Below, one piece after another: positions 30,009 to 43,350 of a DNA stretch of 43,350 nt. Origin of the DNA: Campylobacterota bacterium (GTDB lineage Bacteria; Campylobacterota; Campylobacteria; Campylobacterales; Hydrogenimonadaceae). The DNA lies in NCBI GenBank assembly GCA_013153475.1, contig JAADEJ010000041.1:1-43350 (forward strand), written 5' to 3'. The notes beneath the pieces were generated by a model, which did not search any database, was not told where the DNA came from, and worked only from the letters and a program-made list of their open reading frames with translations. Positions within the stretch are counted from its first letter, which is position 1. Every line of letters begins with the position of its first letter. Made by a program: the position numbers and the translations under genes.

Positions 30009-30926
30009 TCAGGGAGAAGCGAGAAGTTTTTTGGCCAGCGTGAAGCGATTGGCCGTCATCATGTGGATTTTGGGATGCTCGTCCAAAAGCTTCTCATAAA
30101 GATGTCGACTCAACTCCAGTCCCGCTTTCTCCTCCTCTTTTTCACCCTGTTGGTGCGCTTCATAGAGCCGGTCCAGCCAGCTTTTGGGTACGTGAATGCC
30201 CGGGACATGGGCTGAGAGAAACTGGGCGGTTTTGAGGCGTGTGACGGGAAAGATCCCCAGAATCAGCGTAGCTTCCGATTTCCCGCTCTCTTTTTTGGCC
30301 TTTTCGAAAAGCTCAAGCAGCATGTGGGCGTTTTCCAGCTCGAAAACCGGTTGGGTAATGACGCCCAGCGCTCCGTGCTCCAGTTTTTTGACAAATTTTT
30401 TCAGCAGGGTTTCGGGCCGTTTGGCGTAGGCGTTGGAGACGGCGAAGGGATAGACGGGTTTGGGTTTGACGCCAAATTCACGTCCGGCGTAGTCGATGCC
30501 GGCGTTAAAGCATTTGATGATATCCAGCAGCATGGTGCTGTCCGCCTCGAAAACCCCTTTGGCGCCGGGCTGGTCGCTGATTTTGGCCGGATCGCCGGTG
30601 AGGGCCAGAATGGCCCGCACGTCGATGCCGTTGGCGCCCAGCAGGTCGCTTTGCAGGCCAATTTTGTTGCGGTCTCTCATGCTCATGGTCGCCAGCACCG
30701 GCTTTTTGAAGCGCTCCTGCAACTGCATGGCGGCGATGACGCTGTTGAACTTGAGTTTGGCCAGCGGATTGTCGGTGGTGCTGAAACCGTCTACCAGATC
30801 GGCCAGACCCAGTTTGGCGATCTGGTCTATGACCGGCTTGAAACTGGCGTCGTGACCGGGGGTGGTCTCAAGGGTGACATAACGCTTTTTGGGGTCGTGA
30901 AGCTTGGCGATCAGTGTGTCGAACAT
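30009..30926 (-). CDS. Methylenetetrahydrofolate reductase family protein
   Basis: KKRYVTLETTPGHDASFKPVIDQIAKLGLADLVDGFSTTDNP...ILALTGDPAK...GALGVITQPVFE...LILGIFPVT: MTHFR-type TIM-barrel motifs. Confidence 0.82.
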   Translation of the reverse strand: MFDTLIAKLHDPKKRYVTLETTPGHDASFKPVIDQIAKLGLADLVDGFSTTDNPLAKLKFNSVIAAMQLQERFKKPVLATMSMRDRNKIGLQSDLLGANGIDVRAILALTGDPAKISDQPGAKGVFEADSTMLLDIIKCFNAGIDYAGREFGVKPKPVYPFAVSNAYAKRPETLLKKFVKKLEHGALGVITQPVFELENAHMLLELFEKAKKESGKSEATLILGIFPVTRLKTAQFLSAHVPGIHVPKSWLDRLYEAHQQGEKEEEKAGLELSRHLYEKLLDEHPKIHMMTANRFTLAKKLLASP

Positions 30927-30997
30927 ACAAAATCCGTTATCTCGTTGTTATTTTGGTTGGGGTATTATATCAAGTTCAAAACGGCCAAGGAGCGTGC

Positions 30998-31621
30998 GTG
31001 AAACTGGTAGTCTTCGATTTCGATTCCACCCTGATGGACGGGGAGACCATCGACTTTCTGGCGGAGCCTCTGGGTTTCAAGGAGAGGGTGGCGGCCATTA
31101 CCGAGCGGGCCATGCGGGGAGAGTTGGATTTTTTTGAGAGTTTGGTTGAGCGGGTTTCGCTGCTCAAAGGCTTGCCCAAAGAGGAGGTAGAGGCGATTTG
31201 TGCCCGACTGCCGATGATGCCGGGTGCCGAAGAGACGGTGCGGAAACTGAAAGAGCGGGGCTACAAAGTGGTGGTCTTTAGCGGCGGTTTTCGCAGTGCC
31301 ACCCGGCCCGCCGCCGAGAAACTGGGTCTGGATGCCGATTTCGCCAATGTCCTACACGACAAAGAGGGGGTGCTGACGGGCCTGGTGGGCGGCGACATGA
31401 TGTTTGGCTTCTCCAAGGGCGAGATGCTGACGCGCCTGCAAAGTTTGCTTGGCGTGAGCGCCGCCGATACCGTCGCCGTGGGTGACGGGGCGAATGATTT
31501 GAGTATGTTCGCCCACGCCGGCACCCGTATCGCCTTTTGCGCCAAAGAGGTGCTCAAAAAGGAGGCGACGGCCACGGTCGATGAAAAAGACCTGACGCGT
31601 GTGTTGGAGCTGGTGGGATAA
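30998..31621 (+). CDS. serB: Phosphoserine phosphatase (HAD family)
   Basis: (V)KLVVFDFDSTLMDGETIDFLAEPLGFKERVAAITERAMRGELDFFESL...VVFSGGFRSAT...VGDGANDLSMF. GTG start. Confidence 0.93.
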   Translation: MKLVVFDFDSTLMDGETIDFLAEPLGFKERVAAITERAMRGELDFFESLVERVSLLKGLPKEEVEAICARLPMMPGAEETVRKLKERGYKVVVFSGGFRSATRPAAEKLGLDADFANVLHDKEGVLTGLVGGDMMFGFSKGEMLTRLQSLLGVSAADTVAVGDGANDLSMFAHAGTRIAFCAKEVLKKEATATVDEKDLTRVLELVG

Positions 31622-31624
31622 CCC

Positions 31625-33412
31625 TTGGCGAAACGGCTGACCTTCTCTTCGCTTTATCGACGTATCAAAGCCCATAAACGGGCGTTGATCGCGGGCAACG
31701 CGGTAGCGCTGTCGGCAACGCTTGTGAGTGTGCCCACGCCGCTCTTGATTCCTGTGTTGGTGGATGAGGTGCTGTTAAAAAAATCGCACACCCTCACCCG
31801 CTGGATCGATACCCACCTCTTTGCCATGGATACGGCCGGGTATGTGGTGACGGTGTTGATCGTCGTGCTTTTGTTGCGTATGATGTATGCGGGGTTGGGC
31901 ATTTGGCAGACCCGCATTTTCATGGGCATATCCAAGGCGGTCACTTACGATATTCGGCGCGAGGCCCTCTCTCATCTCAAGCGCGTGCAGATGAAAGGGT
32001 ACGAAAACGCCCAAACCGGTTCCATCGCTTCCAAACTGGTGACGGATGTCGAGACGATCGACGCCTTTATCGCCTCTACGGTCAGCCGGCTGATCGTGTC
32101 GGTTTTGACTCTTGTGGGGATCGCGGCGGTTCTTTTTTGGATCCATTGGGGTTTGGCCCTTTTTATCGTGGTGCTCAACCCTTTGGTCATTGCCCTCACC
32201 ACCCGTTTGGCAAGGCGGGTCGCGCGGCTTAAAAAGGAGGAGAACCGGGCCGTTGATGCGTTTCAGTCGGCTCTTATTGAAACGCTGGAGCTTTTTGGGC
32301 AGATTCGCGCCGCCAACCAGGAAGGGCGCTTTTTTGAACGGCTCAACCGCAAAGCGGCCGACTTGAGAGACAAAAGCGTGGCGTTTGGCTGGCGAAGCGA
32401 CGCGGCGGGAAAGGTGAGTTACCTTGCCTTCTTGGGCGGCTACGAGGTGTTTCGGGCGGCCAGTATTCTGGCGGTGGCCTACAGCGATCTGAGTGTTGGG
32501 ATGATGCTGGCGGTATTTGGCTACCTTTGGTATATGGTAACGCCGGTGCAGGATATTTTGAATATCCAGTATGCCCTGCATAACGCCCGCTCAGCCATGG
32601 AACGTATCAACGAGATTTTCGCCCTGCCCACGGAGCCCGAATATCCGACTTTGGAAAACCCCTTTGGGCGGGAGAGGGTCGGGGTCGCTTTGCGGGGGGT
32701 CTCGTTTGGATACGAAGCAAACCGTCCTGTTTTAAAAGGGGTCGATTTTGTTGCCGAGCCCGGCAAAAGGGTGGCGCTGGTAGGCGCCAGCGGGTCGGGC
32801 AAGACGACGTTGGCGCGGCTGATCGTGGGGTTTTATCTGCCCGATAGCGGTGAGATCGTCTTTGGCGGGGTGCCGGTGGAGCGGATCGGGCTTTCGCGGG
32901 TGCGTGCGCACGTGAACATGGTGCTTCAAAGTCCCAAACTGTTTCACGATACGGTGCGCTTTAACATTACGTTGGGGCGGAAAGTGGATGACGAGACGAT
33001 CTGGCGGGCGCTGGAGACGGCCCAGATGAGAGAGACGGTAGAGGGGTTTGAGAAGGGGTTGGATACGCCGGTGGGTAAAGAGGGGGTCAAGCTCTCCGGC
33101 GGTCAGCGCCAGCGTATCGCCATTGCCCGCATGATCGTGGCCGATCCGAAGATCGCCATTTTGGACGAGTCCACTTCGGCGCTGGATGTGCATACCGAAG
33201 CCAGGCTCTACGAGGCGCTGGAGCCCTTTTTCGCGACACGCACGACCATCATGATCGCCCACCGGCTCAGCACGATCCGCCGGGCCGATTATATCTACGT
33301 ACTCGAAAACGGTCGGATCGTGGAAGAGGGAACACACGAAGAACTGCTACAAAAAGAGGGGGTGTATATGGGTTATATCGAACAAAGCGGAGAGTGCCAT
33401 GAGCCTGTTTGA
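31625..33412 (+). CDS. ABC exporter, fused TM/ATP-binding (MsbA-like)
   Basis: Six-TM exporter domain plus NBD: GASGSGKTTLARLI Walker A, LSGGQRQRIAIARMI signature, AILDESTSALD Walker B. TTG start. Confidence 0.93.
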   Translation: MAKRLTFSSLYRRIKAHKRALIAGNAVALSATLVSVPTPLLIPVLVDEVLLKKSHTLTRWIDTHLFAMDTAGYVVTVLIVVLLLRMMYAGLGIWQTRIFMGISKAVTYDIRREALSHLKRVQMKGYENAQTGSIASKLVTDVETIDAFIASTVSRLIVSVLTLVGIAAVLFWIHWGLALFIVVLNPLVIALTTRLARRVARLKKEENRAVDAFQSALIETLELFGQIRAANQEGRFFERLNRKAADLRDKSVAFGWRSDAAGKVSYLAFLGGYEVFRAASILAVAYSDLSVGMMLAVFGYLWYMVTPVQDILNIQYALHNARSAMERINEIFALPTEPEYPTLENPFGRERVGVALRGVSFGYEANRPVLKGVDFVAEPGKRVALVGASGSGKTTLARLIVGFYLPDSGEIVFGGVPVERIGLSRVRAHVNMVLQSPKLFHDTVRFNITLGRKVDDETIWRALETAQMRETVEGFEKGLDTPVGKEGVKLSGGQRQRIAIARMIVADPKIAILDESTSALDVHTEARLYEALEPFFATRTTIMIAHRLSTIRRADYIYVLENGRIVEEGTHEELLQKEGVYMGYIEQSGECHEPV

Positions 33413-34163
33413 CGCATTGATACTGGGTGTTGTGGAGGGGGTGACGGAGTTTTTGCCCGTCTCATCCACGGGGCATCTGATTTTGGCCAGTAAACTCATG
33501 GGCCTGCCCCAGACCGATGTGCACAAAACCTTTGAGGTGGTGATTCAGCTTGGCTCCATTTTGGCGGTGATCTTTGCCTTCAGGGAGCGGATTTTCAAAG
33601 ATTTCGAGCTTTGGAAACGGTTGATCGTGGGCTTTATCCCCACGGCGGTGCTGGGGCTGACGCTCTATAAGATCATCAAGTCGCTTTTTGCGCCCGAGAC
33701 GGTGGCGTATATGCTGATTGCGGGCGGGATCGTCTTTTTGGTCGTGGAGCGCTTTTACAAGGAAAAGGCGCACCACGTGGAGGATGTGGGGGAAATCAGT
33801 TACAAACAGGCCTTTTTGATCGGCCTGTTTCAATCTCTTGCCATGGTACCCGGCACCTCCCGTTCGGGGGCGACGATCATCGGCGGGTTGCTGATTGGAT
33901 TAAAACGCAAGGCGGCGGCGGAATTCAGCTTTTTGCTGGCAGTACCCACGATGTTGGCGGCCACGGCTTACGATATTCTCAAACACCGCGATGAGTTCAG
34001 TTTTGATGATGTGCAGGGACTGGCCGTGGGGTTTGCGGTGGCCTTTTTGGTGGCGCTGGCCATTGTGAAATGGTTTTTGGGCTATATCAAAAAACATACC
34101 TTCGTGCCCTTTGGCATCTACCGCATTGTGGCGGGGTTGGTCTTTTTGATCTTTGTATTGTGA
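33399..34163 (+). CDS. uppP: Undecaprenyl-diphosphatase
   Basis: LILGVVEGVTEFLPVSSTGHLILA and FQSLAMVPGTSRSGATIIGGLLIGL: BacA/UppP signatures. Confidence 0.97.
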   Translation: MSLFDALILGVVEGVTEFLPVSSTGHLILASKLMGLPQTDVHKTFEVVIQLGSILAVIFAFRERIFKDFELWKRLIVGFIPTAVLGLTLYKIIKSLFAPETVAYMLIAGGIVFLVVERFYKEKAHHVEDVGEISYKQAFLIGLFQSLAMVPGTSRSGATIIGGLLIGLKRKAAAEFSFLLAVPTMLAATAYDILKHRDEFSFDDVQGLAVGFAVAFLVALAIVKWFLGYIKKHTFVPFGIYRIVAGLVFLIFVL

Positions 34164-34180
34164 CAGATAAGGGGAACAAC

Positions 34181-34873
34181 ATGAGCAGATACTTTGAGAT
34201 GGCGGCCGACCTGTACCAAAAAGGGGACAAGGTTTCGGCCTTCAACGCCTTTTTGGAGCTGGCTTTGGACGGCGAGGCGGACGCCCAGGCGATGGTGGGC
34301 TATATGCTTGAAAACGGCGAAGGGTGTGAGCAAAACCTGCAGGAGGCGATCAGCTGGTATGAAAAGGCGGCCGATCAGGGGCAGCCGATCGCGCTATTCA
34401 ACCTGGGGCAGATCTACAAGACGGGCAAAGGGGGTGCCGTCAACGAGTCGGCGGCTTTTGAGTGCTTTGTCAAAGCCAGCCGCGCGGGCAATCCCCACGC
34501 CATGTTCGAAGCCGCCCGCATGGCCGAGGCGGGGGCCGGGTGCGAGAAAAACGTACGCCGCGCCGCCAACTGGTACGAAACCGCCGCTACCCTGGGCCAT
34601 GTGGAGGCGCAAAACTCCATTGGCGCCATGTACCAGGAGGGTCAGGGGGTGGCGCAAGATTATCAAAAGGCCAGAGAGTGGTATGAAAAGGCGGCCGAGC
34701 AGGGGCATCCCAGGGCTATGTACAACCTGGGTATGCTTTATGACAAGGGCTGGGGCGTGGAACAAGATCACGAAAAGGCCCTGGCGTGGTGCCGCAAAGC
34801 CGCCCACGCGGGACACGAAAAGGCCAAAGAGATCATTCGCCGCCTCCAGGAGGAGGGAAAGATTGTCTTTTAG
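34181..34873 (+). CDS. Sel1-repeat protein
   Basis: Repeated ~36-aa Sel1 units: A.SWYEKAADQGQPIALFNLGQIYKTGKG, AREWYEKAAEQGHPRAMYNLGMLYDKGWGVEQD, etc. Confidence 0.92.
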   Translation: MSRYFEMAADLYQKGDKVSAFNAFLELALDGEADAQAMVGYMLENGEGCEQNLQEAISWYEKAADQGQPIALFNLGQIYKTGKGGAVNESAAFECFVKASRAGNPHAMFEAARMAEAGAGCEKNVRRAANWYETAATLGHVEAQNSIGAMYQEGQGVAQDYQKAREWYEKAAEQGHPRAMYNLGMLYDKGWGVEQDHEKALAWCRKAAHAGHEKAKEIIRRLQEEGKIVF

Positions 34874-37515
34874 AGGCCGGGCCGCCAGGCCAGCCACTTC
34901 TTTTTGGGCTCGTTATAGAGTCTAAAGAGCGTGCCCTCCTCGGCTACCGGGCCCGGTTTTTCGGGAACCGCCAGCCCGATGCCGCCGCGAATGAGGGTCT
35001 CGAGCGTCTCCGTTTTGATCTTGATACCCGTCAATCCCACATCCATACCCAACGCACCGGCAATGTAGAATCTGCTTTTTTGTCGAACCAGGTGGGCGTA
35101 TCGGGGTTCTATGTAGATTCCGATGCGCACGTACTTTCCGTCGTCGGAGAGGCGATAGCTTTCCACCGATCCGATGGGAACCTGGCGGTAGTAGACCGGC
35201 GCGCCGGGAGAGAGGCTGCTGAGTCTGTCTCCCTCAAGCGTGACGCGTAAACCCGGTTTGCCGTAAGTCGGGGGCGGCGGGGAAGAGAGCAGAAAGCTGT
35301 GCTCCCTGCCTTCGGCACGGCCGGGGGTGATAACCAGCGCCGGACCTTTAAGAAGGGTATCGGTGTTTTTGACCCCTTCCAGATCGGCCTGAAAAGTTTT
35401 GAGCCAGATCTTGCTGTCGGGACGCAATAGGCGGGTATAGGCCTTTTGGATAAGCATATCGAAGCGGATAATGTTGTTGGCCAGCGTCACCCGTTTGACT
35501 TTGCCTACGGCAAACCCTTTGTAAAGCAGGGGGGTACCTTCACGTATATCGTGTCGCTCCGGGCTCCAGACCTCGAAAGCGGCGTAACGTTCTTTCTCCT
35601 CGATTTGAGGGGTAAAGAGTCTGAAACGGTGGCCGTCGGGAACTTTGGCGGCTTTGGGATCGGGGGTCGTGAAGGTAAGTCCTCCGGCGAGAATACTCTT
35701 CAAAGATCCCGCCTTGACAGTGAGATCGGGAAAATTGAATCGCATCTCCACCCCGCTGACATTCTGGAACCGGGTAGAGGCGTTGATGCGCTCTTTGAAA
35801 TTTTTTTGAATGAAGACCAGCACGTCGACGGCGTCTTTTTCGGGAAGATAGCGGCAGGCTATCACTTCACCCGCCTTCATCTTTTTGTAAAGAACGGGTG
35901 AACCTTTGGAAAGAGAGCCCAGCTCTTTCATGACCACGTGGTAACGGGCGCCGCCCGATTTGAGATAGCGGGCTTTTTGGTAGGTTTTGTGGTCTTTGTA
36001 AAGGAAAAAGCGGTGTTTTGTTCGCGGGGCGCTTTTATCGAGTGTCACCATCGCCACACCGCCGACTACCAGGGTCTCCAGGGAGCCGCTGTTGATATGC
36101 AGTTCGGTCAGGTCGGCTTCGACCTCCACCCCGCTTTTGACGTAAAACATGGAGGAGTCGTTGAGGAAATCCTTATACCGTTCGTAGATGACCGCTTCGA
36201 TATCCAGGCTTTTACGACCTGGAAGCAGTGAGATTTTCGTAATCTGCCCGACGGGAATATCTTTGTAAAAAATGGCCGTTCCCTCTTTGAGCGATTCGGC
36301 GTAGATGGCCGAAAGATGGATTTTGTGTCCTTTGATGGGCATGGGGTTTTCATGGAGCCGGAAACGGTGTTTCGGCGCCGCTTCGACGGTATGGGTGTCT
36401 ACCGCGATATAGGGGCCGGAGATGATGGCGTCCAGCCCCTTGACCTGGCGGATGCCGATGACGGGTTTGACAATCCAGAACCACGCCTTTTCGTTGGCCA
36501 GGTGGGCGAACCTTTTGGAGAATTTGATTTTGAAAACGGTTTGGGAAGTTTCGGGATCGTATCGCAACGAGACGATTTTGCCTACCTTGAACCCTTTGTA
36601 GATCACGCTGGAAAAGGCCGGGTCGATGTTGTAGGCTTTGTCGGCGATCAGGGTGACGGTATCGTTGCTTAAATCGGTGTCGAGCTTGGAAGGGAAGAGG
36701 GTATAGGTCTCTTTGGGTTTGCTTGTGGTGTTGAGGTCGGGGGTGTCGAAGGCGATACCGCCGGCCATCAGGGTGGCGAGGGAGTCCATTTTGACCTTCA
36801 CGCCCGCCAGTGTGGCACGCAGATCAACCCCGTTGATTTTCCAAAATCTTGTGGTGGCGTTGACCAAAGAGCGGTAGCGCTCTTCGATAAAAGCGGTGTA
36901 GTAGAGGCGGCGGTTTTTAAGATGTTTGTCCACCACTTTTCCGACGATAAAACCTTTGTAAAGAACCGGTGCGTTAAGACTCACTCCCGCCTCTTCCGCT
37001 TTGAGGGTGACATATAACCCTTTTTCATACCGTTTGGGCGGGTAGTGCTCCATGCCCGTAAAATGAAAACGTTCCGGCTTGGAGAGAATCTCTTTTTTGG
37101 AGCGTCCCGCCGGATAGAGATCTATGTAAACCCCCGTGAGAATCGTATCGAGGCCCGTGATTTCGGTGAGAGAGATTTTGGGTTCGACCTTGATGAATTT
37201 GGTGCCTTTGCGGGTGACGTAGGGGGCGGCTTTGGGGTCGACGGTGATGATGGCCCGCACTTTGTAGAGGTCGTTGTCGTCTATGCGGACTTTGGAGACG
37301 GTGCCGATTTTGATCCCCTGGTAAATCAGCGGGGTTTTGCCCGCCTCCAGCCCTTTGCCGCTTTCGAATGTCACGACAATCTCTACCCCTTTGTCCAGGT
37401 AGTGCTGGTAGATGAGCCAGCCGGCCATCAGCATGGCGGCCAGGGGAACCAGCCAGACCAGCCAGAGGGTGCCCCGCTCCTTTTCGACCGCCTTGTGGGC
37501 GTGGGATTTATCCAT
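34870..37515 (-). CDS. Seven-MCE-domain intermembrane transport protein (LetB/YebT-like, PqiB family)
   Basis: 881 aa, one N-terminal TM, at least seven repeats of [LIYQG/VLYKG/VIYKG/IFYKD/VLYKK/LLYKG/VYYRQ]-x-VG-x-V MCE cores; next to two PqiA-like genes. Confidence 0.9.
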   Translation of the reverse strand: MDKSHAHKAVEKERGTLWLVWLVPLAAMLMAGWLIYQHYLDKGVEIVVTFESGKGLEAGKTPLIYQGIKIGTVSKVRIDDNDLYKVRAIITVDPKAAPYVTRKGTKFIKVEPKISLTEITGLDTILTGVYIDLYPAGRSKKEILSKPERFHFTGMEHYPPKRYEKGLYVTLKAEEAGVSLNAPVLYKGFIVGKVVDKHLKNRRLYYTAFIEERYRSLVNATTRFWKINGVDLRATLAGVKVKMDSLATLMAGGIAFDTPDLNTTSKPKETYTLFPSKLDTDLSNDTVTLIADKAYNIDPAFSSVIYKGFKVGKIVSLRYDPETSQTVFKIKFSKRFAHLANEKAWFWIVKPVIGIRQVKGLDAIISGPYIAVDTHTVEAAPKHRFRLHENPMPIKGHKIHLSAIYAESLKEGTAIFYKDIPVGQITKISLLPGRKSLDIEAVIYERYKDFLNDSSMFYVKSGVEVEADLTELHINSGSLETLVVGGVAMVTLDKSAPRTKHRFFLYKDHKTYQKARYLKSGGARYHVVMKELGSLSKGSPVLYKKMKAGEVIACRYLPEKDAVDVLVFIQKNFKERINASTRFQNVSGVEMRFNFPDLTVKAGSLKSILAGGLTFTTPDPKAAKVPDGHRFRLFTPQIEEKERYAAFEVWSPERHDIREGTPLLYKGFAVGKVKRVTLANNIIRFDMLIQKAYTRLLRPDSKIWLKTFQADLEGVKNTDTLLKGPALVITPGRAEGREHSFLLSSPPPPTYGKPGLRVTLEGDRLSSLSPGAPVYYRQVPIGSVESYRLSDDGKYVRIGIYIEPRYAHLVRQKSRFYIAGALGMDVGLTGIKIKTETLETLIRGGIGLAVPEKPGPVAEEGTLFRLYNEPKKKWLAWRPGL

Positions 37516-38146
37516 CGCTGCTCCTTTGGTTTTCATGATCGAACATCAGCCTCGGGTCGAAAGCCTCCGTGGCGAAAATGGTGGTCACCACCGCCAGCAT
37601 GAACGCGATGGCGGCGGGCCCGGTGACAATGGTGGCCAGGTTTTTGAATTGTACCAATCCTACCATCAGGGCCACCACGAAGATATCCAACATCGACCAT
37701 TTGCCGATAAAGTGTATCAGACGGTAGAGTTTAAGTCCCAGTCTCGCTTTTGCATGGCGGTGAAAACGGACGATCCAGAGAAGATAAAAAAGTACCGTCA
37801 GTTTGAAAAAAGGGACAAAGACGCTGGCGACGAAAATCACCACCCCGATCCACGCTTCCCCATGTTCGAGAAAATAGATCACCCCGTCCATAATGGTACC
37901 CGCGTCGTCACCCACAAGGGAGTGGACGATCATCATGGGGAGCAGGTTGGCCGGAATGAGTAGCAAAGTGGCGGCCAGGGCGAGACTGAATGTTTTGGCC
38001 AGGGCGTGAGGTTTGCGCTGGAAGAGGGGAGAGCCGCACCGATCGCACCGTTTGCGCTCCAGCGGATGTAGTTTGCGACAATGCAGACAGAGCTGCACGC
38101 CGGCGTCGATATCAGTTTTCCAGCGCATCGTCCAGCCAGATGTCAT
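37508..38146 (-). CDS. PqiA/LetA family membrane protein, second half-like (start likely 38128)
   Basis: Zinc ribbon CLHCRKLHPLERKRCDRCG then TMs (SLALAATLLLIPANLLPMMIV..., GKWSMLDIFVVALMVGLVQFKNLATIVTGPAAIAF), PqiA motifs. Confidence 0.88.
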   Translation of the reverse strand: MTSGWTMRWKTDIDAGVQLCLHCRKLHPLERKRCDRCGSPLFQRKPHALAKTFSLALAATLLLIPANLLPMMIVHSLVGDDAGTIMDGVIYFLEHGEAWIGVVIFVASVFVPFFKLTVLFYLLWIVRFHRHAKARLGLKLYRLIHFIGKWSMLDIFVVALMVGLVQFKNLATIVTGPAAIAFMLAVVTTIFATEAFDPRLMFDHENQRSSDG

Positions 38147-38720
38147 CCGGGTTGAACCAGACGGTGGTAATGAAAAAGGTCAGGAAAAAGAGAATGAATA
38201 TATAAAATCCGGGGCCGATATGCAGGGTTCCCATGCCGTGGAGCTTGACCATGGAAACCACGATGGAGATGAGGTAAACCTCCGCCATGCCCCACTCCCG
38301 CATCGTTTCATAGAGACGGTAGGCATGGCGTATCCAGTGGGGACGGTGCCCGAAATGGATAGGCAGCAGAATGGCAAGCAGAAGAACGAGCATGGCGACG
38401 GGGGCGAGAATCCCGGTCCAGAGGGCAAGAAGGGCTATCAGATAATAACCGTCTTTGTAGACGACCCAAAACGCTTTGAAAAGGGTGGCGCTGTTCTCTT
38501 GCCCCATGATATTCAGATCCAGAATGGGAAGAAACAGCAGGGGAAGAAAGAGCGTCAACGCGGCCAGGGCCATTACGATAACGTGAGAGAAGGGTTGGCC
38601 CCGTCGGTAGAGCAACCCTTCGCACCGCGGACACCGGTATTGTCCGATACCAAGATGCAAAGGGACCGATACAAGCACGCCGCACTCTTTGCAGGCGGTG
38701 GTTTCGCTCTTTTTCGCCAA
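38112..38720 (-). CDS. PqiA/LetA family membrane protein, first half-like
   Basis: Zinc ribbon CKECGVLVSVPLHLGIGQYRCPRCEG then TM helices with REWGMAEVYLISIVVSMVKLH. TTG start at 38720 with RBS AAAGGAG rather than ORF start 38771. Confidence 0.85.
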   Translation of the reverse strand: MAKKSETTACKECGVLVSVPLHLGIGQYRCPRCEGLLYRRGQPFSHVIVMALAALTLFLPLLFLPILDLNIMGQENSATLFKAFWVVYKDGYYLIALLALWTGILAPVAMLVLLLAILLPIHFGHRPHWIRHAYRLYETMREWGMAEVYLISIVVSMVKLHGMGTLHIGPGFYIFILFFLTFFITTVWFNPDDIWLDDALEN

Positions 38721-38786
38721 CGATTTCTCCTTTGATCTTAAAGTATAGTAAAAGTCGGCTGATGGCGGCATTATGGCAAAATGGGA

Positions 38787-38821: not shown

Positions 38822-41800
38822 GTGGAACGCACGAAAAACTTGAAACTGAAACTGCTTCTGATCTTTCTGTTTCCCGCCGTCGGTATGCTCTATTTCTCTT
38901 TTGATTATGTCCATAACAAGTTTGAGCAGTATCAGAAGACGGTCTATCTGGAGGAGGCCTCCGTTTATGTCGATGCGGCCACGCATTTGATCAAGGAGTT
39001 GCAAAAAGAGCGGGGGTTGAGTGTCGCCTCTTTGACGAGTCAGGATTATTTCTCCAAAAAACTGGTGACTCAAAGAGAGTTGAGCGACAAAGCCTACAAT
39101 CGCTTCTCGAAGCTCTTTCCCAGAGTCAAAGACGCTTTTCAGGCGGATCTTCTCAAACGATTCATCGAACGTTACCGTGAAATTACCATTATCAGAAAAA
39201 AGGTCGATGCGGGTGAGCTGGATGTATTCGGTATTCTCAACTACTATAGCTCCTTGGTCGAAAAGCTCATAGGAAGCGCCTCTATCTTGAAGAACGTTTT
39301 TGTCAATGAACGCTTCTACAAACTCTCCAACGGATACGATATGCTGCTCAATCTTGCCGAGAACAACGGGAGAGAACGGGCGCTGATCTCATGGTTGTTG
39401 GTGGAGAAAAAGGACAACAAAGCCATACGGCAATATCTGTACGATCTGGAGATTCAGACCGCCGGATTGAGCGTTAGAATGGAAAAAGAGGGGGTACTCA
39501 CCATCGCCCACCTGTACCAACAATATGTGCCCAAGGATATGGAAGAGGCGTATACGGCATTGAAGAAACGGATTATCTTCGATCGGGATTTAAGCGGTGT
39601 GAGCGGTGAACACTGGTGGCAACTGGCGACGCAATATATCAACGCCATCTATCAGGTCAACGGGCAGATTATACGCACAATGTGGCAATTGAGGGACAAG
39701 TTGAAAGAGGAAGCCTATCGGGCTTTGGTTTTGAGTCTTGTACTTTGGATCGGCGCTTTGGCCGCTTTGTATGCGCTGGTTCTGATTTTCACCCGGATTA
39801 TCAACGCCTACGGACGGCAGGTTTCCAAAACCATTGAACAGAAAAAGCTGTATCGCGCCTTTTCCGAGTACTCCGAAGTGTTGATTTATAACGAAGACGA
39901 GCAGGTTCTACTGGGAACGATGTGTGTGATTTTGATGCAGACAGAGAAGTTTGACCATCTTTGGATCGCCAAAGTGGATCGGGAAGGGAAAATCGAACCG
40001 GTGGTAACGGAAAATATCGCTTCCGTTCTGATAACGCAGGCTTTCGAGAAGGGGGACCGGGCCTCTGCCCGTCTCAAGAAAGCCATTCGCCAATTGGGAG
40101 GAAGCGGCAAATATGAGATTCTGCTTCGCGGCGTGGAAGCCTCCGCGCTTTACGATCAGGTGGAGTCGTTTGGGCTTTTTTCGCTGTTTGAAAAAGACAA
40201 TGCCTCGTATGTCCTGGTGGCCGGTGCGAAAAAGAATGACGAGTTGAATGCCTGGACCATCGACCTGTTGGGACGGATGGTCGGGGGCTTGCGTTACGCG
40301 ATGGAAAAGATCGCCCTCAAGCGGGAAGATGAAGAGTTGAAAGCCTCTTTGAAAGTGATGGCGTCGGTTTTTGAGACCCATGAGGCTATCACCATTACCG
40401 ACGCATTCGGGAAAATTGTCAAAGTCAACCGGGCGTTTACCCGTATCACCGGATATGAACCCGAAGAGGTGATCGGCAAGAATCCGAGCGTGCTGAAGTC
40501 GGGTGAACACGACAAGGCATTTTACAACGAGATGTGGGACGCCATTCGGAAAAAAGGCTTCTGGAAAGGTGAGATTATCAATAAGCGAAAGAACGGGGAG
40601 ATCTATCCCGAGATGCTTTCGATCAGTGCCGTCAAAAATGAAAAAGGCGAAATCACCCACTATGTGGCCCACTTTTTCGATATTACCGACCTCAAAGCCG
40701 CCCAGAGACAGGCGGAGTATCGGGCACAGCATGACCCCCTGACCGATCTTTACAACAGGCAGAAGCTTCTTGAAGAGCTTGAACGGATATACGAAAAAGG
40801 GCGGCAGGACGGCTATTACAGCGCCTTTTTGTTTTTTGATCTGGATAATTTCAAACAGATCAACGACTTTTACACCCACGAGATAGGGGATAAAGTGCTT
40901 GTACGCGTGGCGGAACGGTTACGGTCGTTCGCGTTTGAAAACGATATCGTGGCGCGTATCGCGGGAGATGAGTTTGCATTTATCGCCGTGGATATTGACA
41001 AACAGCGTACCGAAGCCATCAAAAAAGTTTCGATTCTGCTTGAGAAAATCAGAAAAAGTTTTGAGCGTACCATGGAGGTGGACGGTCATGAAGTGGAAAT
41101 CTCTTTCAGCATCGGGGTCAAGATATTCCCGGATGATGAAAAAAGCGCGCAGGATGTGGTTGTAGACGCCGATGTGGCCATGTATCACGCCAAACGAAAC
41201 GGAAAGAATCAATACAAATTTTTTGACGAACGGCTCGACCTGGAAGCCAAACAGTTTATCGTTTTGAAAAACGAGTTTACAAAAGCGCTGGAGAGAGGAG
41301 AACTGCTGGTTCATTACCAGCCGCAGGTCGAGATAGGTACCGGAAGGATTTGCGGATTGGAGGCGATGGTACGTTGGCGGCATCCCGAACGCGGTTTGCT
41401 CTATCCCGACAGTTTCATTCACGTGGTAACTTCCAACCGTCTCAATTTCGCTTTGACCGTTTATGTGTTGAAACAGGTCGCGGTTGATCTGAAAAAGTGG
41501 AAAAAAGTTCTCAAAGAGTTTCCTCTCCGTATCGCCATCAACATTTCCGGCGGACAGTTCAATCAGAAAGATTTTGAGAAAAAGATTCTCGATGTCATTC
41601 GGGAGATGGAAATTGAGCCGAAGGCGCTGGAATTCGAGATTGTCGAAGATATTCTCATGAAAGATATCGACCATTCGGTCGAGATGATTCGGCGATTCAA
41701 ACAATACGGTTTCAGTTTCAGCATTGACGACTTTGGAACGGGGTATTCTTCCATCAACTACCTCAAACGTTTACCGGTGGACAGTTTGAAAATAGATAAA

Positions 41801-42019
41801 AGTTTTGTGCTGGAGAACAGTGAAGGCAATTCTGTAGAGATTGTGAAAATGATTATTCAGACCGCCAAAATTTTCGGACTCAAAAGTATCGCGGAAGGGG
41901 TTGAAGATGAAGAGACCCTGCAAATGCTGGCCTCGTTTGGATGCGACTGTTACCAGGGATACCATTTTTCACCGGCAGTGGATGCGGACCGTGTGGTCGC
42001 GTTGTTGAAAGGGCAATGA
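38822..42019 (+). CDS. NIT-PAS-GGDEF-EAL bifunctional c-di-GMP signalling protein
   Basis: N-terminal TM and NIT-like sensor (LIKELQKERGLSVASLTS), second TM, PAS (TDAFGKIVKVNRAFTRITGYEPEEVIGKNPSVLKSGEHD), GGDEF (RIAGDEFAFI), EAL (LEAMVRWRHPERG...DDFGTGYSSINYLKRLPVDSLKID...EGVED). Confidence 0.94.
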   Translation: MERTKNLKLKLLLIFLFPAVGMLYFSFDYVHNKFEQYQKTVYLEEASVYVDAATHLIKELQKERGLSVASLTSQDYFSKKLVTQRELSDKAYNRFSKLFPRVKDAFQADLLKRFIERYREITIIRKKVDAGELDVFGILNYYSSLVEKLIGSASILKNVFVNERFYKLSNGYDMLLNLAENNGRERALISWLLVEKKDNKAIRQYLYDLEIQTAGLSVRMEKEGVLTIAHLYQQYVPKDMEEAYTALKKRIIFDRDLSGVSGEHWWQLATQYINAIYQVNGQIIRTMWQLRDKLKEEAYRALVLSLVLWIGALAALYALVLIFTRIINAYGRQVSKTIEQKKLYRAFSEYSEVLIYNEDEQVLLGTMCVILMQTEKFDHLWIAKVDREGKIEPVVTENIASVLITQAFEKGDRASARLKKAIRQLGGSGKYEILLRGVEASALYDQVESFGLFSLFEKDNASYVLVAGAKKNDELNAWTIDLLGRMVGGLRYAMEKIALKREDEELKASLKVMASVFETHEAITITDAFGKIVKVNRAFTRITGYEPEEVIGKNPSVLKSGEHDKAFYNEMWDAIRKKGFWKGEIINKRKNGEIYPEMLSISAVKNEKGEITHYVAHFFDITDLKAAQRQAEYRAQHDPLTDLYNRQKLLEELERIYEKGRQDGYYSAFLFFDLDNFKQINDFYTHEIGDKVLVRVAERLRSFAFENDIVARIAGDEFAFIAVDIDKQRTEAIKKVSILLEKIRKSFERTMEVDGHEVEISFSIGVKIFPDDEKSAQDVVVDADVAMYHAKRNGKNQYKFFDERLDLEAKQFIVLKNEFTKALERGELLVHYQPQVEIGTGRICGLEAMVRWRHPERGLLYPDSFIHVVTSNRLNFALTVYVLKQVAVDLKKWKKVLKEFPLRIAINISGGQFNQKDFEKKILDVIREMEIEPKALEFEIVEDILMKDIDHSVEMIRRFKQYGFSFSIDDFGTGYSSINYLKRLPVDSLKIDKSFVLENSEGNSVEIVKMIIQTAKIFGLKSIAEGVEDEETLQMLASFGCDCYQGYHFSPAVDADRVVALLKGQ

Positions 42020-42025
42020 TTAAAT

Positions 42026-42043
42026 GTACAAATCGCGTACAAA
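42026..42043 (+). repeat. Direct repeat GTACAAA x2 with 11-nt period
   Basis: GTACAAATCGCGTACAAA: copies at 42026-42032 and 42037-42043. Confidence 0.85.
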
Positions 42044-42087
42044 TGCAATCTGCTTGATCCAAAATGCCGATTTTAAGGGGTTTGAAG

Positions 42088-42104
42088 TGGCGGACAGGGA
42101 GGGA
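42088..42104 (-). mobile_element. tRNA-Ser 3'-end fragment: candidate att site / left end of a genomic island
   Basis: Minus strand TCCCTCCCTGTCCGCCA: end of T-arm, acceptor CCTGTCC, G73, CCA, as in tRNA-Ser; no tRNA body present; coincides with the change to AT-rich sequence. Confidence 0.6.
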
Positions 42105-42198
42105 AGCCATTATAAAAACAAATAAAACAAACAAAAGACCATAAAATCGGGCTTTCGTAACTCTGTCAAAATCTCATCAATGTGTATTTTGTGGCATT

Positions 42199-42219
42199 TT
42201 TGGGCACAATTTGGGCACA
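42199..42219 (+). repeat. Direct repeat TTTGGGCACA x2 with 11-nt period
   Basis: TTTGGGCACAATTTGGGCACA: copies at 42199-42208 and 42210-42219. Confidence 0.85.
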
Positions 42220-42275
42220 GTAATGTAGACAACATTTTAGTATTGCTGATGCTATATAAGGATATTTGATTATAT

Positions 42276-43350
42276 ATGACAATTGAAGAAGCCATCAAAC
42301 AGCTGCAAAACTCCATTCTCCCCAAATTGAGTCAATGTATACCCGATCCATCCCATAAAGAAAAGTTCAACAATACAATGAGCTTTTTACTACCCAAAGA
42401 AACTTTGGGCTATCCGGATAGTCAAACATTTTTGAATGAAAAAAGACTTTTACCCTTTGATATCGCTTTGATGTCAATAACCTACTGTATGCCCGATTTG
42501 GATAAAAAAAGAAAAAGACAACTGGCTTCTTATTTTGTTCCTTTCGCGTCCAACTTGAGTTTGCGAGTAGACAAAGTTACTAACCAAACAATTTATAAAG
42601 AAGTTGTTTTGATCCTTGAATATGTCAAAAAAATCCTTGTGCTTTTGGATGAGTTCCCAAAATATTGGAACAATTACCAGGGAACGAAGTTTCGATCCAG
42701 TAGTGAGAAAAATCTTATCAAAGCCCAGTTGGCATCATTGAAAGATCGGTTAGAACATCCCTGTTTCCCAGTGACATGCCAGGAGGAGATTGAAAAAACA
42801 AAGCTTTTGATTAACTTTATTGAGATGCTTTCAAAACCAGAGAATCGGCATATTCCAGAGTGGATTGCATTTGTAAATAATTTCTCTTCAATTGAAATAT
42901 TGCACAATTTTGGATTAACGAAAATCGAATTAGATGTTCTTAAACAGTCAAGCAACTTTTTTAATGGTATCCGTACCCAAAAGCATGAAGTTATCAAAAG
43001 TGTTGGAATCTATATACAAATACAGATTTCCAGGAAACCATTGACTTCAAAAGACAAGAGGGCCTATGCGGAAGCTATTCAGGATATTCTTGAATATTTT
43101 TTTAAAAAGCGTTATCCTGATGAGTTAAACAGAAAGGGGATGTGTTTTACAGCCAAAAGCTTCAATAAGACTCCGATGATAAAGACACATCTGGATGAAA
43201 CTCCTCTTTTCAGATATCAAACTTCGTCACGGCAGATTGATCCTTTAACGCGATGTTTTATCGAATTTATTGAAACGATGACAGAAATTAATGATGACAG
43301 TTCAGAAGAAATTTCTGGATATATATTTGCAAAGAATCTCTTAAAAGAGC
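42276..43350 (+). CDS. Uncharacterised protein of a putative genomic island (partial, runs off window)
   Basis: ATG at 42276 and no in-frame stop to 43350 (358 codons read): MTIEEAIKQLQNSILPKLSQCIPDPSHKEKFNNTMSFLLPKETLGYPDSQTFLNEKRLLPFDIALMSITYCMPDLDKKRKRQLASYFVPF...; family not recognised. AT-rich codon usage. Confidence 0.8.
   Translation, partial: MTIEEAIKQLQNSILPKLSQCIPDPSHKEKFNNTMSFLLPKETLGYPDSQTFLNEKRLLPFDIALMSITYCMPDLDKKRKRQLASYFVPFASNLSLRVDKVTNQTIYKEVVLILEYVKKILVLLDEFPKYWNNYQGTKFRSSSEKNLIKAQLASLKDRLEHPCFPVTCQEEIEKTKLLINFIEMLSKPENRHIPEWIAFVNNFSSIEILHNFGLTKIELDVLKQSSNFFNGIRTQKHEVIKSVGIYIQIQISRKPLTSKDKRAYAEAIQDILEYFFKKRYPDELNRKGMCFTAKSFNKTPMIKTHLDETPLFRYQTSSRQIDPLTRCFIEFIETMTEINDDSSEEISGYIFAKNLLKE

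Follow-up and report, generated by a model that had tools for sequence, protein, structure and literature searches.

The distribution of attachment-site repeats between two contigs indicates that positions 42084-42104 of the window, the 43,350-nt stretch of DNA analyzed here, are very probably the left attachment site (attL) of a small integrative element inserted into the 3' end of a tRNA-Ser(GCU) gene. The integrase and excisionase genes and the right attachment site (attR) would lie on a second contig, C48, and a gap between the contigs would hold two further genes, p86 and p447. The window is the entire contig C82 of a 1.76-Mb assembly with 107 contigs, and therefore the assembly contains nothing to the right of it. 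Judged from its sequence features, which are tRNA 3' repeats, an adjacent integrase, and unoccupied sites in relatives, the element is a tRNA-targeting tyrosine-recombinase integrative element.

The two ends of the element

The sequence-only reading of this DNA had proposed that the minus strand at 42104-42088 reads TCCCTCCCTGTCCGCCA, the last 17 nt of a tRNA-Ser without a tRNA body, and had predicted that an intact minus-strand tRNA-Ser ending in the same 17 nt and a tyrosine recombinase would be found with it. All of these proposals are borne out. The 17-mer is present, and there is no tRNA body at 42088-42104. With up to one mismatch allowed, a search of the entire 1.76-Mb assembly finds it at two places only, 42088-42104 and C48:1332-1348. 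At the second place it forms the 3' terminus of an intact tRNA-Ser(GCU) gene (C48:1332-1422, minus strand). The exact repeat is longer than the 17-mer. It consists of 21 bp, GAAGTGGCGGACAGGGAGGGA, and is found at 42084-42104 (minus strand; tRNA part 42088-42104) and at C48:1328-1348, so that the attL core comprises the tRNA 3' end and 4 additional nt. The outer flank of attL (42062-42083, plus strand) aligns imperfectly with sequence adjoining the tRNA-Ser at the other end, and a repeat search shows that it forms an inverted repeat (77%) with 42134-42155.

A tyrosine recombinase gene adjoins the C48 tRNA-Ser on the side facing the element. It encodes an integrase of 356 amino acids (C48:184-1254) with Arm-DNA-bind_2 (PF12167), SAM-like (PF14659), and Phage_integrase (PF00589, E 4e-20) domains, and it ends 78 bp from the tRNA 3' end. 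An HTH_17/excisionase-like open reading frame overlaps the integrase gene from upstream and is open at the start of C48. The closest integrases among annotated phages are those of Nitratiruptor phages NrS-1 to NrS-5, with about 31-34% identity. However, these are phages of 37-43 kb, and relatives of p447 were not found among phage records. The integrase has no relatives in viral_contigs, and genome_contigs gave only one distant match, from Prevotella.

Two contig ends are linked by a second repeat in addition to the core. Positions 42020-43350 of the window and C48:1-1500 share exactly two words of at least 12 bp, each 21 bp long and in the same orientation. One is the core, and the other is an arm repeat with the tandem structure TTTGGGCACA-A-TTTGGGCACA, located at 42199-42219 (plus strand) and identical over 21 bp, TTTGGGCACAATTTGGGCACA, to C48:1259-1279. 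Across the 1.37 Mb of genome sequence sampled, the tandem pair is found nowhere but at these two ends. The two copies of TTTGGGCACA inside each end are spaced by 11 bp and are likely to be arm-type binding sites for the integrase. Shuffling the sequence 200 times gave shared words of up to 15 bp, compared to 21 bp for these repeats. It is extremely improbable that coincidence, or the decay of a tRNA pseudogene that never took part in integration, accounts for the 17-mer, since the 21-bp core and the 21-bp arm repeats occur together, an integrase and an intact tRNA accompany them, and relatives have empty sites.

Base composition also changes near attL. The GC content is 0.57 in positions 1-38800, 0.48 (0.476) in the EAL-domain gene at 38822-42019, and 0.34 to the right of 42104. 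The sequence-only reading described a sharp change after 42019; the fall in GC is real, but it takes place in two steps rather than one. Within the 1.37 Mb sampled, no contig end other than the right end of the window has less than 40% GC. The ends of C82 and C48 do not overlap, and in a contig-end comparison they match nothing else in the assembly.

A further observation concerns the sequence that separates the arm repeats from the end of the tRNA. A CC..TAAAAT..GGGG-like stretch is found there at several loci with different tRNAs (L003:1308-1330, L205, L207, L208, and L219), and it is perhaps a terminator provided by the element for the tRNA gene.

The tRNA-Ser locus in related genomes

Three relatives from the same genus (G007, G004, and G016) have unoccupied sites, as was expected if an element had inserted here. 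In these genomes the genes of the window's left flank (30914-38771) abut tRNA-Ser directly, including those at 34870-38771 (minus strand), an MCE-like and two PqiA-like open reading frames that we take to be pqi genes. Synteny and the junctions in relatives mark these genes as chromosomal flank. Beyond the tRNA-Ser are pyrF-like and acs-like genes, as on C48. Because the left flank and the C48 genes border a single tRNA-Ser in the relatives, C82 on the left and C48 on the right would be adjacent if the insert were removed.

Other relatives have remnants or different insertions at this position. In G011, the closest of the compared relatives by protein identity, the pqi genes adjoin the tRNA-Ser with a stretch of 126 bp kept between them. 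This stretch (L050:1245-1400) is 78% identical to C48 and takes in a single arm repeat along with the 3' end of the integrase gene. A relative of the window's element was most likely present here once and left it as a scar. Scar-like sequences are also found at the tRNA-Ser of G015 and G017. These lie to the left of the tRNA (L045 and L049, respectively) and contain remnants that resemble arm repeats and integrase ends, suggesting that elements have been gained and lost repeatedly at this tRNA-Ser. G009 has an insert of about 36 kb between a tRNA-Ser 3' fragment and an intact tRNA-Ser (L053/L054, G009:C4:53846-90031). Its own integrase lies beside the tRNA and is a related one, with 28.5% identity; this is a different element in the same hotspot. 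The tRNA-Ser locus as a whole looks like an insertion hotspot.

The gene immediately to the left of attL has a separate history. It encodes a NIT-PAS-GGDEF-EAL protein (38822-42019, plus strand) and lies outside the element, between the pqi genes and attL. The gene is absent from the site in G007, G004, G016, and G011, so the sequence directly to the left of attL was also added locally, possibly as an older acquisition. Orthologs with 47-52% identity are found elsewhere in four relatives. Membership of this gene in the element was considered and ruled out, since the attachment core lies to the right of the gene, and neither inspection by eye nor the 17-mer search found a second tRNA-Ser fragment to its left.

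Compact relatives and the missing interior

The first gene of the element, ORFX, connects it to two compact elements in the same order. ORFX (42276-43350, plus strand) runs off the contig end after 358 of an expected 410 or so amino acids. It matches no known family or domain, including those of Pfam, and its single-sequence fold model is unusable (mean pLDDT 37.7). A known defence gene was considered as its identity and rejected, as there was no PADLOC or Pfam match. No relatives were found in the genus or in genome_contigs, viral_contigs, plasmids, and IMG/VR. The order has two homologs, in G261 (413 amino acids, about 34-35% identity) and in G273 (411 amino acids, about 31-32%). Each belongs to a compact block consisting of a tRNA, an integrase gene (int), an HTH gene, a gene for 447 amino acids, a gene for 86 amino acids, and the 411- or 413-amino-acid gene, so that both elements have the order ORFX, p86, p447, xis, int. 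The window's element has homologs of ORFX, xis (38% and 64% identity to G261 and G273, respectively), and int (41% and 49%) in the same relative positions, while p86 and p447 would fall in the assembly gap.

Both template elements have definable ends. The G261 element is bounded by 18-bp repeats of a tRNA-Arg 3' end 5977 bp apart (about 6.0 kb) and carries two further small lipoprotein-like open reading frames. The G273 element has 16-bp tRNA-Asn 3' repeats about 7456 bp apart (about 7.5 kb), and its extra cargo is a reverse transcriptase gene together with that of a partner. The arm repeats of both elements have the same 11-bp spacing. The cargo of G273 (L194:10987-12833) is composed of an RVT_1 reverse transcriptase and an upstream gene for 308 amino acids, and this pair looks like a retron-type or other reverse transcriptase defence system.

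Since int, the HTH gene, and ORFX are all homologous to those of G261 and G273, the unassembled gap should hold the end of ORFX, p86, and p447, in about 2 kb. On this template the element is most likely about 4.6 kb long if it has no further cargo. The sequence-only reading had envisaged a genomic island extending to the right. An insert does run rightward from attL, but it is most likely a miniature element of this size and not a large island. We infer the content and size of the gap from the relatives because C82 and C48 have no sequence join and a profile search did not find p447 in the window's own assembly (G000).

It is also conceivable, but quite improbable, that the insert is a prophage or genomic island of tens of kb in the tRNA-Ser, that most of it is absent from the assembly, and that the small elements are not an applicable template. 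The large insert of G009, at the same locus and with a related integrase beside the tRNA, speaks for this reading. Low-GC contigs that could be missing parts of an island were looked for and none were found, as all other contigs in the 1.37 Mb sampled have more than 51% GC; the same fact allows that pieces with low GC dropped out in binning. Against a large island, ORFX belongs to the compact module of G261 and G273 with the same int and xis partners, and the arm motif and the int-xis arrangement agree with the compact elements.

A small element is thus the preferred reading, and its parts suggest how it may work. It would run rightward from attL through the gap and end on C48 with the excisionase-like gene, the tyrosine integrase, and, at the intact tRNA-Ser, attR. 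From this anatomy, the integrase would be guided by the tandem arm sites with 11-bp spacing at both ends and would recombine attP with the tRNA 3' end, leaving the tRNA whole. The p447 protein may then copy the excised circle as a rolling-circle initiator, with p86 as its single-strand DNA-binding partner. ORFX could be a swappable accessory gene, perhaps with a role in phage defence or in interaction with a helper. No transfer gene is recognised, and for this reason movement between cells is probably by way of a helper phage or conjugative element.

The p447 family and its possible functions

Elements with p447 are found across the phylum. A p447 profile detects the protein in 36 of 398 genomes (about 9%), representing 16 of 68 genera. 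An integrase gene adjoins p447 in 29 of the 30 loci read, and a p86 homolog is on the opposite side in 19 of the 30. Where the sequence reaches far enough, several of these elements have sites at tRNA 3' ends, including those of tRNA-Asn, tRNA-Met, and tRNA-Ser(GGA). For example, the element of G080 (L219) lies in tRNA-Ser(GGA), and it has an arm pair identical to that of the window and an integrase with 66% identity. The position occupied by ORFX is variable. Its 26 sequences form 10 groups without detectable mutual similarity, and single members match DrmD or nSTAND-like models; these were taken from loci ending about 1.5 kb past p447, so some of the open reading frames may fall outside the element.

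The replication functions of p447 and p86 are suggested by low-scoring matches and by gene position. Six of 27 p447 members match Rep_trans (PF02486) at residues of about 150-270 in the members shown, with a best value of 1.1e-4 that is below the curated Pfam cut-off, and one member weakly matches Phage_CRI (G2P). The member from L205 matches two small Paenibacillus plasmids (E 3e-5 and 2e-4), at one place annotated as a 'replication initiation protein'. Similarly, 4 of 19 p86 proteins weakly match Putative_G5P (best 0.0069). These weak matches and the gene positions make it probable that p447 initiates rolling-circle replication as a protein of the Rep_trans type, and that p86 is a small protein binding single-stranded DNA. 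Neither reaches the cut-off of a Pfam, PHROGs, or NCBIfam model, and PDB profile searches gave no meaningful match. Searches of viral_contigs, phages, and plasmids with the p447 protein of G261 gave no match, nor did a search of IMG/VR with an alignment of the p447 pair. A literature search on such elements in Campylobacterota, Arcobacter, and Sulfurimonas found nothing on the p447 family. The family therefore consists of small integrative elements that are unnamed in the phage, plasmid, IMG/VR, and domain libraries searched.

The pairing of p447 with p86 resembles a feature of filamentous phages. Integrated filamentous phages and satellites (Inoviridae) have a Rep_trans/G2P-like initiator beside a small G5P-like protein, and p447 and p86 would be a similar pair. 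The difference is that the complete G261 element has no recognised Zot/pI or coat genes, while it has a dedicated tyrosine integrase and an excisionase. An inovirus prophage was rejected as the identity of these elements, because no Zot or coat gene is recognised in the complete G261 element and Zot has no match at the element loci of 18 genomes. One form compatible with the small-element reading is a satellite of a phage, or what is left of a filamentous phage once only its replication module is kept, packaged by a helper phage. This form is plausible, with less than an even chance of being correct. The Rep_trans/G2P-like and G5P-like pair favors it, as does an integrase nearest, among named phages, to those of Nitratiruptor and Helicobacter phages. 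In addition, the small size and single accessory slot resemble the PICMI satellites of Vibrio (PMC10803314). On the other hand, no phage structural gene is recognised in the 5977-bp G261 element, and the Zot profile is unmatched at the element in the 18 genomes.

The resemblance to PICMI extends to a minimal gene set of integrase, HTH regulator or excisionase, one replication protein, and an accessory slot (PMC10803314). PICMI are phage satellites of Vibrionaceae that encode a DUF3987/DUF5906 primase and are located next to fis (PMC10803314), in contrast to the Rep_trans-like protein and the tRNA 3' ends found here. Membership in PICMI was rejected, as p447 members have no primase domain and the sites are tRNA 3' ends and not fis.

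Another form compatible with the small-element reading, although a rather unlikely one, is an integrative and mobilizable element (IME), in which p447 would be a MobT-like relaxase and the circle would use a conjugative system. MobT relaxases are related to Rep_trans, which p447 weakly matches, and IMEs with tyrosine integrases are frequent in tRNA 3' ends (PMC5704250). Rep_trans/MobT IMEs such as IMESag-rpsI share with the elements described here a tyrosine integrase, insertion in a gene 3' end that leaves the gene intact, a Rep_trans-type initiator (putative in p447), and small size (PMC5704250). However, they are from another phylum, and p447 and p86 are not called by the domain libraries. 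The Phage_CRI match of one p447 member and the G5P matches of p86, weak as they are, point instead to phage- or plasmid-type replication.

Overall it appears that the anatomy of the window's element is of a known kind, while none of the libraries searched has a name for its replication and accessory genes. There is about an even chance that these elements are an undescribed, phylum-wide family of miniature tRNA-integrated elements, each with int, xis, a diverged Rep_trans protein (p447), a G5P-like protein (p86), and one swappable accessory gene but no recognised transfer genes, and that they represent a new minimal satellite or hitchhiker that trades phage-defence genes in its slot. Dependence on a helper and the accessory function would be part of this picture. 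The case also illustrates how a metagenome-assembled genome may retain both junctions of an insert with low GC content although the inside of the insert is lost. From a 17-nt scrap of tRNA, the analysis has arrived at an element whose two ends are both known and which can be tested. Should p447 prove to be a rolling-circle initiator, the minimum number of genes for an integrative element, and its carrier between cells, become questions that this family may help to address.
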